A stretch of DNA of 64,000 bases from Clostridia bacterium. GTDB taxonomy: Bacteria; Bacillota; Clostridia; Oscillospirales; CAG-272. The DNA is taken from positions 1 to 64,000 of the forward strand of contig JAFVQC010000028.1 of assembly GCA_017504995.1 (NCBI GenBank), given 5' to 3'. Position 1 is the first letter of the stretch. Each line of letters begins with the position of its first letter. The notes below the pieces were generated by a model. It saw only the letters and a program-made list of their open reading frames with translations, made no database searches and was not told where the DNA came from. The position numbers and the translations under genes are program-made. Below are positions 4,152 to 16,422 of the stretch, piece by piece.

Positions 4152-5372
4152 ATGACGATTTATGACGAGCTGGTTGCCAGAGGACTGATCGCTCAGGTAA
4201 CCGACGAAAATGAGATCAAGGAACTGATCAACAACGGAAAAGCCGTATTTTACATTGGCTTTGACCCCACCGCGGACAGTCTGCACGTGGGACATTTCAT
4301 GGCGCTTTGTTTGATGAAGCGTCTGCAAATGGCAGGCAACAAGCCCATCGCCCTCATCGGCGGCGGCACGGCAATGATCGGCGACCCCTCGGGCAGAACC
4401 GATATGCGCCAGATGATGACCACCGAGACCATTGCTCATAACTGCGATTGCTTCAAAAAGCAGATGAGCCGCTTCATCGACTTTTCCGAGGGAAAGGCGA
4501 TCATGATCAACAACGCCGACTGGCTGCTTGATCTGAACTACGTAGAGGTATTGCGCGAGGTCGGCTCTTGCTTCTCGGTCAACAATATGTTGCGCGCCGA
4601 GTGCTACAAGCAAAGAATGGAAAAGGGACTGTCCTTCCTTGAGTTCAACTATATGATCATGCAGTCCTACGACTTTTATCATCTGTACAAGACCATGGGC
4701 TGTAATATGCAGTTCGGCGGTGATGACCAATGGTCCAATATGCTGGGCGGAACCGAGCTGATCCGCCGCAAGCTTGGCAAGGACGCCTATGCCATGACCA
4801 TCAATCTGCTCCTCAACTCCGAGGGCAAGAAGATGGGCAAGACCCAGTCGGGCGCGGTATGGCTGGATCCCGATAAAACCTCGCCTTACGATTTCTATCA
4901 GTACTGGAGAAACGTTGCCGACTCCGACGTGCTCAAGTGTATCCGCATGCTGACCTTCCTTCCCTTGGAGGAGATCGATGCCATGGATAAGTGGGAGGGC
5001 GCGCAGCTCAACCGTGCCAAGGAGATTCTTGCCTTTGAGCTGACCAAGCTGGTTCACGGCGAGGAGGAAGCGAAGAAAGCGGAAGCAAGCGCCAAAGCGC
5101 TGTTCGGTGCGGGCGCGGAAGCGGAGATCCCCATGACCGAGCTTTGCGCCGCAGACTTCACGGACGGCGTGATCGATATCGGAACGATCCTCGTCAAGGC
5201 GGGTCTCGTTCCTTCCAAGTCCGAGGCAAGGCGCGCCATCGAGCAGGGCGGCGTTTCGGTAGACAACGAAAAAGTCAAAGACGTGCGCGCCACCTTCACG
5301 ATGGACGACCTGAAGGACGGCAAGGTATTCCGCAGAGGAAAGAAAAATTTCCGTAAGGTAACCGTAAAATAA
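4152..5372 (+). CDS. tyrS: Tyrosyl-tRNA synthetase
   Basis: Class I aminoacyl-tRNA synthetase that charges tRNA-Tyr. The HIGH-type motif is HVGH at residues 45-48. The KMSKS-type loop is KMGKT near 226-230. The active-site stretch around [10 protein letters not shown] is present, and an S4 RNA-binding domain fills the last 60 residues. At 406 residues the length is normal. The start at 4152 has GAGGAGG in front; an upstream in-frame ATG at 4107 lies almost on the promoter and is rejected. The last codons and stop are duplicated 658 bp downstream by the RAYT insertion, which separated the gene from its original terminator at 6035-6069. Confidence 0.97.
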
Positions 5373-5385
5373 AGACACGCTTGCG
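5350..5385 (+). repeat. 36-bp direct repeat, left copy
   Basis: Covers the last tyrS codons, its stop and the left arm of the tyrS terminator. It is identical over 36 bases to 6008-6043. Together the copies flank the first RAYT gene. Confidence 0.9.
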
Positions 5386-5409
5386 GTCCTTCTCATAAGA
5401 ATATAAGCA

Positions 5410-5444
5410 AAAATCGGCGGAGATATTGTTTCTCCGCCGATTTT
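5410..5444 (+). promoter_or_regulatory. Hairpin and -10 element in front of RAYT 1
   Basis: Perfect 14-bp arms (5410-5423 and 5431-5444, 7-base loop, right arm ending TTTT) can act as the replacement terminator for tyrS. Immediately after lies TATAAT at 5449-5454. The right arm, the -10 box and the following ATGGGTGATG are almost the same in front of the second RAYT gene near 16364-16422. Confidence 0.65.
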
Positions 5445-5464
5445 GTGGTATAATGAGATGGGTG

Positions 5465-5980
5465 ATGGAAATGGACGAACGAAAATACAGAAAAACAACC
5501 AGATTAAAAAGTGCGGATTACGACAGCAACCAAGTCGTGTTCTTAACGATATGCACCAAGGAAAGACGCTGTATTCTTTCCCGCATTGTAGGGACCGGCG
5601 TCCTCGACGGTCCAAAAATCGAATTAACCGAATATGGAAAAATTGCAGAGAAATACATCAATCAATTAAATAATTTTTATAATGATCTTTCGGTGGAGAG
5701 TTACGTGATTATGCCCAATCACATTCATATTTTGTTATGGGTAAAGGGCAATGAAAATGGACCGTCGAGGACGCCGGTCCCTACAGTTCAGAATACAATT
5801 CCCGCGAAGTTTTTATCAACTTTTAAAAGATTTTGCAATAAAGAATGTGGAAAGAATATTTGGCAATATCGCTCCAACGATCATATTATCCGCAATCGCG
5901 AGGATTACGAAGAACATTTGCGATATATCTACGAAAATCCTACTCGTTGGTGCTATGATGAATTGTATATCGAAGAATAG
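5465..5980 (+). CDS. REP-associated tyrosine transposase (RAYT), copy 1
   Basis: Y1/HUH transposase of the IS200-like superfamily, RAYT branch, about 171 residues. It has the HUH motif in MPNHIHILLW and a downstream tyrosine in REDYEEHLRYIYENP. RAYT proteins nick single-stranded REP palindromes headed by GTAG. The start at 5465 is chosen because upstream in-frame ATG 5453 overlaps the -10 box; the ribosome site is weak. Inside the frame are two inverted 26-bp copies of a GTAG-headed hairpin (5588-5613, 5759-5784) bracketing the HUH region. The gene sits between 36-bp direct repeats in the tyrS terminator. It is closely related in layout to the gene at 15804. Confidence 0.88.
   Translation: MEMDERKYRKTTRLKSADYDSNQVVFLTICTKERRCILSRIVGTGVLDGPKIELTEYGKIAEKYINQLNNFYNDLSVESYVIMPNHIHILLWVKGNENGPSRTPVPTVQNTIPAKFLSTFKRFCNKECGKNIWQYRSNDHIIRNREDYEEHLRYIYENPTRWCYDELYIEE
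5588..5613 (+). repeat. REP-like arm inside RAYT 1 (left)
   Basis: Begins GTAG and contains the stem GGACCG/CGGTCC with a 10-base loop. It is the exact reverse complement of 5759-5784. It encodes V-G-T-G-V-L-D-G-P in frame. Confidence 0.8.
5759..5784 (-). repeat. REP-like arm inside RAYT 1 (right)
   Basis: Exact inverse copy of 5588-5613, with GTAG at its right end on the minus strand. It encodes G-P-S-R-T-P-V-P-T in frame. The pair forms a BIME-like arrangement spanning 197 bp. Confidence 0.8.
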
Positions 5981-6007
5981 AGATTAAAATTGAAAAATGC
6001 CAAAATA

Positions 6008-6043
6008 TCCGTAAGGTAACCGTAAAATAAAGACACGCTTGCG
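6008..6043 (+). repeat. 36-bp direct repeat, right copy
   Basis: Identical to 5350-5385. It is joined to the complete tyrS terminator, so it is probably the original downstream flank of tyrS. Confidence 0.9.
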
Positions 6044-6069
6044 ATGGTTTTCCGTCGCAAGCGTTTTTT
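6035..6069 (+). terminator. Original tyrS terminator, displaced
   Basis: Stem ACGCTTGCGA/TCGCAAGCGT (10 bp) followed by TTTTTT. It is now about 660 bp beyond the tyrS stop because of the RAYT insertion and serves the RAYT transcript. Confidence 0.85.
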
Positions 6070-15803: not shown

Positions 15804-16370
15804 CTATTTTTCTATATTCAAACGATTATAGTACCACCGCTTGGGATTCTCATAAATGTATTTTCTACGGGTTTCATAATCCTCTCTGTCACGAACGATA
15901 TGCTCGGCAAACGAGCGTTGGAACATTTTCTCTACCCCATATTGTTGCTTACAACTACGCGACGTCAACGATTTAAACGCGCAGATTACATCATCCAAGG
16001 TAGGGGAGGGGCTTGCTCCTCCCGCCTTTTCGTGCAAGAATATAATTACATGAATATGGTCAGGCATAATGACATATTCCTCAATCGTAACACTTGGAAA
16101 ACGGGTTTCAATCAACCGTAATTGTTCTTTTACGATCTCACCGCAGGGTTTTAATTTAACCGTAATTTCGGGAGGAGCAAGCCCCTCCCCTACCGCGGGA
16201 TAGGTTGTTTTGCCAGTAGCCGTGAGATCTGCTTTAACTATTTCGGATAAAATATGCATTCTGTCCCGTATGCATATCGTAACAAAGTATGCGCCCGCTG
16301 AGCTGTAATCATAATTCTTTAATCTTGTTGATTTTCTTTTCGGCAAATCATTTTCTTTATCCATTTTCAT
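15804..16370 (-). CDS. REP-associated tyrosine transposase (RAYT), copy 2
   Basis: About 188 residues, with the same order as copy 1: VTICIRDRMHIL, MPDHIHVIIFL (HUH motif) and REDYETRRKYIYENPKRWYY with the candidate nucleophilic tyrosine. It has an extra stretch ATGKTTYPAVGEGLAPP compared with copy 1. The start at 16370 is preferred because ATG 16382 overlaps the -10 box. A 25-bp GTAG-headed hairpin occurs twice in inverse inside the gene (16000-16024, 16169-16193), again around the HUH region. No TnpB or other IS605 gene is near. Confidence 0.88.
   Translation of the reverse strand: MKMDKENDLPKRKSTRLKNYDYSSAGAYFVTICIRDRMHILSEIVKADLTATGKTTYPAVGEGLAPPEITVKLKPCGEIVKEQLRLIETRFPSVTIEEYVIMPDHIHVIIFLHEKAGGASPSPTLDDVICAFKSLTSRSCKQQYGVEKMFQRSFAEHIVRDREDYETRRKYIYENPKRWYYNRLNIEK
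16000..16024 (+). repeat. REP-like arm inside RAYT 2 (left)
   Basis: Begins GTAG with stem GGGAGG/CCTCCC and an 8-base loop. It is the exact inverse of 16169-16193. Read on the minus strand it encodes the G-G-A-S-P-S-P-T stretch. Confidence 0.8.
16169..16193 (-). repeat. REP-like arm inside RAYT 2 (right)
   Basis: Inverse copy of 16000-16024. On the minus strand it begins GTA GGG in frame and encodes V-G-E-G-L-A-P-P. The pair spans 194 bp, against 197 in copy 1. Confidence 0.8.
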
Positions 16371-16380
16371 CACCCATATC

Positions 16381-16422
16381 ATTATAACACAAAATCGGCA
16401 GAAAGAAAAGTCCTTCTGCCGA
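16381..16422 (-). promoter_or_regulatory. Hairpin and -10 element in front of RAYT 2
   Basis: Arms 16395-16403 and 16414-16422 form TCGGCAGAA/TTCTGCCGA. On the minus strand the hairpin runs directly into ATTTTGTG and TATAAT (16381-16386), matching the region before RAYT 1 almost base for base. Confidence 0.65.

Follow-up and report, generated by a model that had tools for sequence, protein, structure and literature searches.

The window analyzed here, a 64,000-nt stretch of contig JAFVQC010000028.1 from a Clostridia bacterium of the CAG-272 lineage (assembly GCA_017504995.1), carries two genes for transposases of the repetitive extragenic palindrome (REP)-associated tyrosine transposase (RAYT) family. 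Each contains an inverted pair of REPs, referred to as the 5′ and 3′ arms, in frame on either side of the catalytic HUH motif. The source is a draft genome of 1.62 Mb in 121 contigs that is 77% complete and has eight RAYT family matches. The main subject is the gene at 15804–16370 (gene 2), which was compared with its paralogue in the window (gene 1). The features concerned are:

15804–16370, minus strand: gene 2, a Y1/HUH transposase of the RAYT/TnpA-REP type (open reading frame [ORF] call and profile matches; start codon inferred)
16169–16194, minus strand: 5′ REP arm of gene 2 in the coding sense, GGTAGGGGAGGGGCTTGCTCCTCCCG, encoding VGEGLAPP in the loop that precedes the first helix (inverted repeat and genome copies)
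16050–16061, minus strand: HUH motif of gene 2, D-H-I-H, between both arms (ORF translation; H104 and H106)
15999–16024, minus strand: 3′ REP arm of gene 2, an exact inverted copy of the 5′ arm, encoding GGASPSPT in the loop from the HUH strand to the next helix
5465–5977, plus strand: gene 1, a RAYT paralogue of gene 2 with another REP type (start codon inferred)
5587–5614, plus strand: 5′ REP arm of gene 1, 28 nt, perfect
5758–5785, plus strand: 3′ REP arm of gene 1, inverted, 28 nt, perfect

The arms of gene 2 are perfectly complementary over 26 nt and lie 144 nt apart. Their sequence occurs in the window at these two sites only (≤3 mismatches) and in none of 100 dinucleotide shuffles, so the inverted repeat is not expected by chance. 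A preliminary description of this DNA had reported GTAG-headed arms of 25 bp in gene 2, placed as in gene 1 and with a different core. These observations are confirmed, with the repeat one base longer at each outer end. The GTAG-to-CTAC span of gene 2 measures 194 nt, compared to 197 nt in gene 1, and in both genes the 5′ arm is read as GTA GGG (V-G), the 3′ arm ends in P-T, and the HUH motif lies between. The arm cores differ between the two genes and are identical inside each. The interpretation offered with these observations, that the arms changed together through gene conversion or selection for arm identity, is supported in part.

The product of gene 2 matches Pfam PF01797 (Transposase IS200 like) at 25.1 bits (cut-off 23); at E 1e-3, Pfam gave no match for gene 1 and two paralogues. 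NCBIfam NF047646 (REP_Tyr_transpos) was the best family for the three proteins tried, with 67.3 bits for gene 2, 54.8 for gene 1, and 64.8 for the third, all below the curated cut-off of 80 bits. The nearest solved structure by sequence profile is 4er8 TnpArep (E 5.6e-13), an E. coli protein (PMC6006769). Residues invariant in 36 aligned rows include the HUH histidines H104 and H106, a single catalytic tyrosine of the IS200/IS605 type (Y170), the pairs V59-G60 and P122-T123 encoded by the arm ends, and Q150, H156, and R159. By spacing, the last three would correspond to GTAG-contact residues reported in E. coli (residue list from PMC6006769; the mapping is ours). An AlphaFold2 model built from 36 family sequences (mean pLDDT 84.4, pTM 0.78) places the 5′ arm peptide in and just past loop 53–64 (pLDDT <50), ahead of strand 68–72 and helix 74–89, and the 3′ arm peptide in the loop joining HUH strand 104–111 to helix 124–143.

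Copies of the arms were found across the genome. The 20-nt core of gene 2 has 33 sites (≤3 mismatches), compared to one for a reversed control pattern, and the type shared by gene 1 and locus L003 has 105, compared to none. Twenty of the 33 sites form 10 REPIN-like pairs in opposite orientation with starts 121–126 nt apart, four are the arms of gene 2 and of a pseudogene on contig C39, and nine are without such pairing. GGTA precedes the exact copies in the 30 loci fetched, except for one at a contig end. On these counts, both arms of gene 2 are evidently REPs of their own genome. GTAG faces inward in the paired REPs of the gene 2 type and outward in the gene arms; a general rule of opposite orientation was dropped, as pairs 98 nt apart in genome G070 face outward. 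A reading of REPs as ordinary coding inserts was also set aside. Of 60 sites examined (of 138 in the own genome), eight fall in open frames of at least 150 codons, and two of these are the arms of gene 2. The pseudogene is a truncated RAYT (G000:C39:12758-13083; loci L006 and L007) with both arms perfect and the rest diverged or missing. Compared to gene 2, it has kept 52 of 52 arm bases, and 115 of 144 bases between the arms match.

We searched for the arm pair in related genomes. Species genomes supplied 80 loci (best 80 of 205 relatives), a family search with a RAYT match in 71 of 146 genomes added another 30, and 60 further stretches completed the set. A pair was counted when an inverted repeat around the HUH motif scored at least 15, and the control was the same gene with its downstream part swapped in from another. 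A pair was present in 133 of 146 distinct RAYT ORFs of the family, compared to 24 of 146 with swapped partners, and an in-frame GTAGG or GTGGG lies ahead of the HUH motif in all but three of 105 ORFs. The order sample gave a RAYT match in 41 of 197 genomes, including the own genome and five of its family; 43 loci were scanned, five of them having no ORF by the filter (L279, L281, L288, L292, and L303), and for other families of the order the pair was found in 31 of 38 ORFs (swapped control, 3 of 38). Judged from these sequences, arm pairing is the rule in the RAYT branch of gene 2. Farther away, 20 of 398 genomes in a phylum sample matched at E 1e-20 (own genome included), yielding 21 ORFs with one clear pair (L247) and two weak GTAG-headed pairs. 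Three plasmid records matched, and the two inspected (Bacteroidota and Chloroflexota) are armless. Armless RAYT homologues thus exist in the phylum sample and on plasmids, and they are without the arm-encoded peptides. TnpA-Y1 subclass 2.4 is reported to be abundant in Cyanobacteria and Bacteroidota.

The arms are conserved beyond what their peptides require. Each arm was anchored independently of its partner, which worked in 95 of 105 ORFs, and the mean identity between the two was 22.8 of 24, with 56 pairs perfect. Identity in 10,000 partner shuffles was 14.2 (maximum 16.2). Synonymous codon resampling of the 3′ arm gave 16.3, and the observed value was reached in six of the 95 genes (300 draws each). 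Compared within each of four arm types (57 genes), third codon positions are identical at 97.5%–100% in either arm and at 45%–51% in the HUH block, the value for the 3′ arm being the cleaner one because the 5′ arm was used to choose the arm type. Protein conservation is therefore not the explanation of the arms; a full account by amino-acid conservation, the refuting case named in the preliminary description, is itself refuted by the synonymous resampling and the third codon positions.

Changes in the arms were then placed on a tree of 132 proteins, constructed by a quick method with arm residues excluded. Of the 146 ORFs, the 13 that scored below 15 and one more without GTAGG in either arm had been removed, both for the tree and for per-position counts. 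Parsimony gave 37 changes for the 5′ stem label, 30 for the 3′ label, and 39 for the combined label. When only the 109 genes whose two stem labels agree were considered (20 types), 28 changes were required, compared to a minimum of 70 in 200 label shuffles. Because of these counts, arm types can be said to follow the protein clade, with most changes hitting both arms. That both arms changed together at the DNA level, as had been proposed, holds on this tree with about 28 joint changes. The GTAG head and stem are evidently constrained as DNA in a manner that tracks the protein clade.

A hairpin is formed by each arm in all 132 pairs, and the arms are identical over the hairpin in 82. The remaining pairs differ at 91 positions. 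Loops account for 34 (of 489 loop cells) and compensated stem positions for 42; three further stem positions stay paired via wobble, two swap an unpaired G-A (L005), three are in the GTAG head (L095, L187, and L235), and seven break a stem pair (of 2,228 stem cells), L195 accounting for six and L236 for the remaining one. The 5′ arm of L005 is an intact hairpin of a REP subtype with the unpaired stem G-A swapped to A-G. In a clade of 12 genes, the 5′ arm keeps GGGGCGAA and the 3′ arm GGGGCGAC. The suggestion of selection for arm identity is thus unsupported: 34 of the 91 differences are in the loop, 42 are compensated stem positions, and the 12-gene clade keeps two different REPs. The data fit better with a constraint on each arm to be a REP hairpin of the right type than with a constraint on the arms to equal each other. 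Such a pattern would be expected of REPs if each needs to be recognized by its stem and GTAG. Five RAYT genes (L237, L295, L309, L312, and L317) have unlike stems in their two arms, compensated in L237 and, by eye, self-paired in the others; these are candidates for the replacement of one arm.

Evidence for copying between arms comes from private variants. Locus L157 in genome G006 (98% complete) has three tandem REP units in the 5′ arm and two in the 3′ arm, with the same junction. This junction has three occurrences in the draft genome (≤3 mismatches), all within the L157 gene, so that a change in both arms of one gene is, as far as the assembly goes, found nowhere else. The same is probably true of a second gene, in genome G115 (76% complete), where a tail variant is seen at three of the seven sites listed, all three in the arms of one RAYT (equated with L080 via contig coordinates). 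The G006 junction and the G115 variant point to arm-to-arm copying, as in gene conversion, the other mechanism raised at the outset.

Five arm types were counted in 44 genomes, 34 with a RAYT found and 10 without, to compare copies outside RAYT genes between genomes whose RAYT has the type and RAYT genomes where the type was unseen. Copies were deduplicated by context, which may undercount a few (G121 has four, counted as three), and the RAYTs fetched did not cover every one in each genome. Median copy numbers in carrying and other genomes were 9 and 0 (P = 3e-5), 4.5 and 0 (P = 0.006), 9 and 0 (P = 0.001), and, for a further type, 3 and 0 (P = 5e-4). A separate test used the flanks of 60 named loci, where own cores had 11 occurrences over 62 cells and foreign cores 34 over 1,618; the highest of 2,000 permutations was 9. 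The recommended check of RAYT arm type against the REPs of the same genome was thus positive for four of five arm types and in the flank test. Together with the own-genome counts of 33 and 105 sites, the 44-genome matrix associates these RAYTs with specific GTAG REP families repeated in the genome, as is characteristic of RAYTs. Agreement can extend to details: in G068, both RAYT arms and 26 of the genome's 39 sites, arms included, end in CCCGCA. For four of 44 genome/type pairs (G006, G091, G038, and G048), the count turned up no further copy of the arm type, and a genomic pool therefore seems unneeded for arm likeness.

The reading we favor, and hold to be moderately probable, is that gene 2 is a RAYT with its own inverted REP pair in frame, kept as DNA hairpins and homogenized by arm-to-arm copying, with the arms as the cognate target of the enzyme. 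TnpA-REP is reported to recognize GTAG, the stem, and the bulge in single strands (PMC8266576). On this reading, the arms would be kept because the surrounding gene's RAYT recognizes them as its cognate single-strand hairpins, and enzyme and target would be inherited as one unit. A change could spread from one arm to the other by template switching at the inverted repeat, or by RAYT-made nicks and strand transfer. Template switching is reported to homogenize inverted-repeat arms in yeast coding DNA (PMC8604942), and DNA-protein crosslinks to stimulate it in E. coli (PMC6357072); both reports suggest the hypothesis that the covalent Tyr-DNA intermediate of the enzyme could trigger the copying. 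The RAYT gene could then preserve, over the long term, a reference version of the REP type dispersed by its enzyme. A stronger version, which we consider speculative and unlikely, makes the gene both the enduring origin of its repeat and a target of the enzyme it encodes: the two coding REPs would allow the enzyme to act on its own gene, arm copying would fix new variants there first, and the enzyme would export them, so that REP families would be born in the gene and co-inherited with it.

Several observations weigh against the favored reading. The role of the arms as cognate target is argued from the family. Support is below 80 for 63 of the 129 inner branches of the tree, and the genomes are mostly drafts, in which REP copies can be lost at contig breaks. 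Thirteen of 146 RAYT genes are without a good arm pair, and the pair is therefore dispensable, at least temporarily. The GGGCGGGGG type has no significant genome match (medians 4.5 and 1, P = 0.11). Genome G136, of the same genus, has 20 sites of the gene 2 type and no RAYT found at the family search threshold, so REPs would persist without the gene; its sites are either orphan REPs or the sign of a missed RAYT gene.

Passive insertion would produce the pair if REPs dispersed by RAYTs land in tolerant loops of the gene and the arms are alike because they come from a common genomic pool. Both arms are in loops in the predicted model, most genomes hold many copies of the arm type, the two arms of L005 are REP subtypes that are both present in the pool, and internal REPs were read as tolerable loop insertions by Quentin et al. 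(PMC6006769). We nevertheless consider it unlikely, as it does not account for the recurrence of both HUH sides, opposite orientations, and frame across the family and order, for the four genome/type pairs without another copy, or for the private junction in G006. Purely mutational homogenization, in which replication switches templates at the inverted repeat and selection is not involved, has the yeast and E. coli precedents cited above in its favor and fits the private variants of G006 and G115. It is more doubtful still, because it should equalize loop and stem alike, yet loops differ at 34 of 489 cells and stem pairing is broken at seven of 2,228; nor does it explain the 42 stem differences compensated within each arm, the 12-gene clade with two different arms, or the match to the genome's REPs. 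The arms might instead hold RAYT expression down through a structure in the mRNA, as they can pair over 26 bp and a 210-nt segment in which they are paired has a folding energy of −91.3 kcal/mol, but this explanation is highly improbable: the clade with non-matching stems still keeps each local hairpin, and a general brake need not match the genome's REP type. Despite the invariant V59-G60 and P122-T123, amino-acid conservation is refuted as the full explanation of the arms in view of the differing peptides of the two arms, the near-invariant third codon positions, the six of 95 genes in which synonymous resampling reached the observed identity, and the homologues that lack arms and peptides.

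The surroundings of the RAYT genes contain a further recurrent element. A perfect 9- to 14-bp hairpin followed by a −10-like box, usually TGTGNTATAAT, is upstream of 34 of 114 RAYT genes compared to none of 114 shuffled sequences. Hairpin stems vary between genes with pairing kept, and in many loci the loop contains a TTGTT where a −35 element might sit. In the window, the upstream scan gave:

16381–16422, minus strand: hairpin then TATAAT upstream of gene 2, a putative promoter (scan of 114 RAYT genes)
5410–5454, plus strand: hairpin with a −10-like box upstream of gene 1

The element may be a hairpin promoter or a gene-insulating terminator. Gene 1 is also flanked by a 51-nt direct repeat (90%) at 5344–5394 and 6002–6052, 658 bp apart, the right copy of which leads into a terminator-like inverted repeat. 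The arrangement resembles that of a RAYT unit whose insertion duplicated the end of the gene upstream.

In-frame REPs in tnpAREP genes were already published in 2018. Quentin et al. (PMC6006769) describe them in subclass 2.4, as a rule in the interval from HuH to Y, and consider that activity may be little affected. Gene 2 resembles this subclass in its GTAG-headed hairpins and in-frame REPs, and its 3′ arm is an in-frame REP between HuH and Y. By the main-text description, however, subclass 2.4 insertions are generally in the HuH-to-Y interval and accompanied by flanking REPs, whereas the gene 2 family has one REP before the HUH motif and an inverted, co-varying copy after it, and a REP of the same core 0.4–1.4 kb from the motif was found in only 3 of 58 genes (≤2 mismatches). 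For the classical REPtron, Nunvar et al. 2010 (PMC2817692) describe a pair of inverted REPs flanking every RAYT, the sequences of which change while palindromicity persists. The likeness extends to two inverted REPs, palindromicity kept across changes between orthologues, and a match to the genome's REPs; in the gene 2 family, however, the pair does not flank the gene and is located within the reading frame, on either side of the catalytic motif. Intragenic GTAG REPs and Rickettsia palindromic elements are likewise palindromic repeats within open reading frames, but as presented by Di Nocera et al. 2013 (PMC3733652), they occupy mostly different sites in varied unrelated genes, with no paired sites around a catalytic motif described. 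The palindromes of Nematomorpha mitochondria are perfect inverted repeats with both arms coding, although the account in PMC6649704 does not present them as mobile repeats or as part of a nuclease gene acting on them. No description of paired, inverted, HUH-bracketing REPs was found in a literature search for which most subscription papers and supplements were outside reach.

These findings bear on the continued match between REPs and a domesticated, low-copy transposase, and on the way in which the stem of a REP family changes. With enzyme and target as one piece of DNA, changing the stem would require coordinated substitutions in both arms of a gene, and these can be counted on trees. As a natural example, the arms also illustrate clearly the concerted evolution of an inverted repeat within coding sequence.
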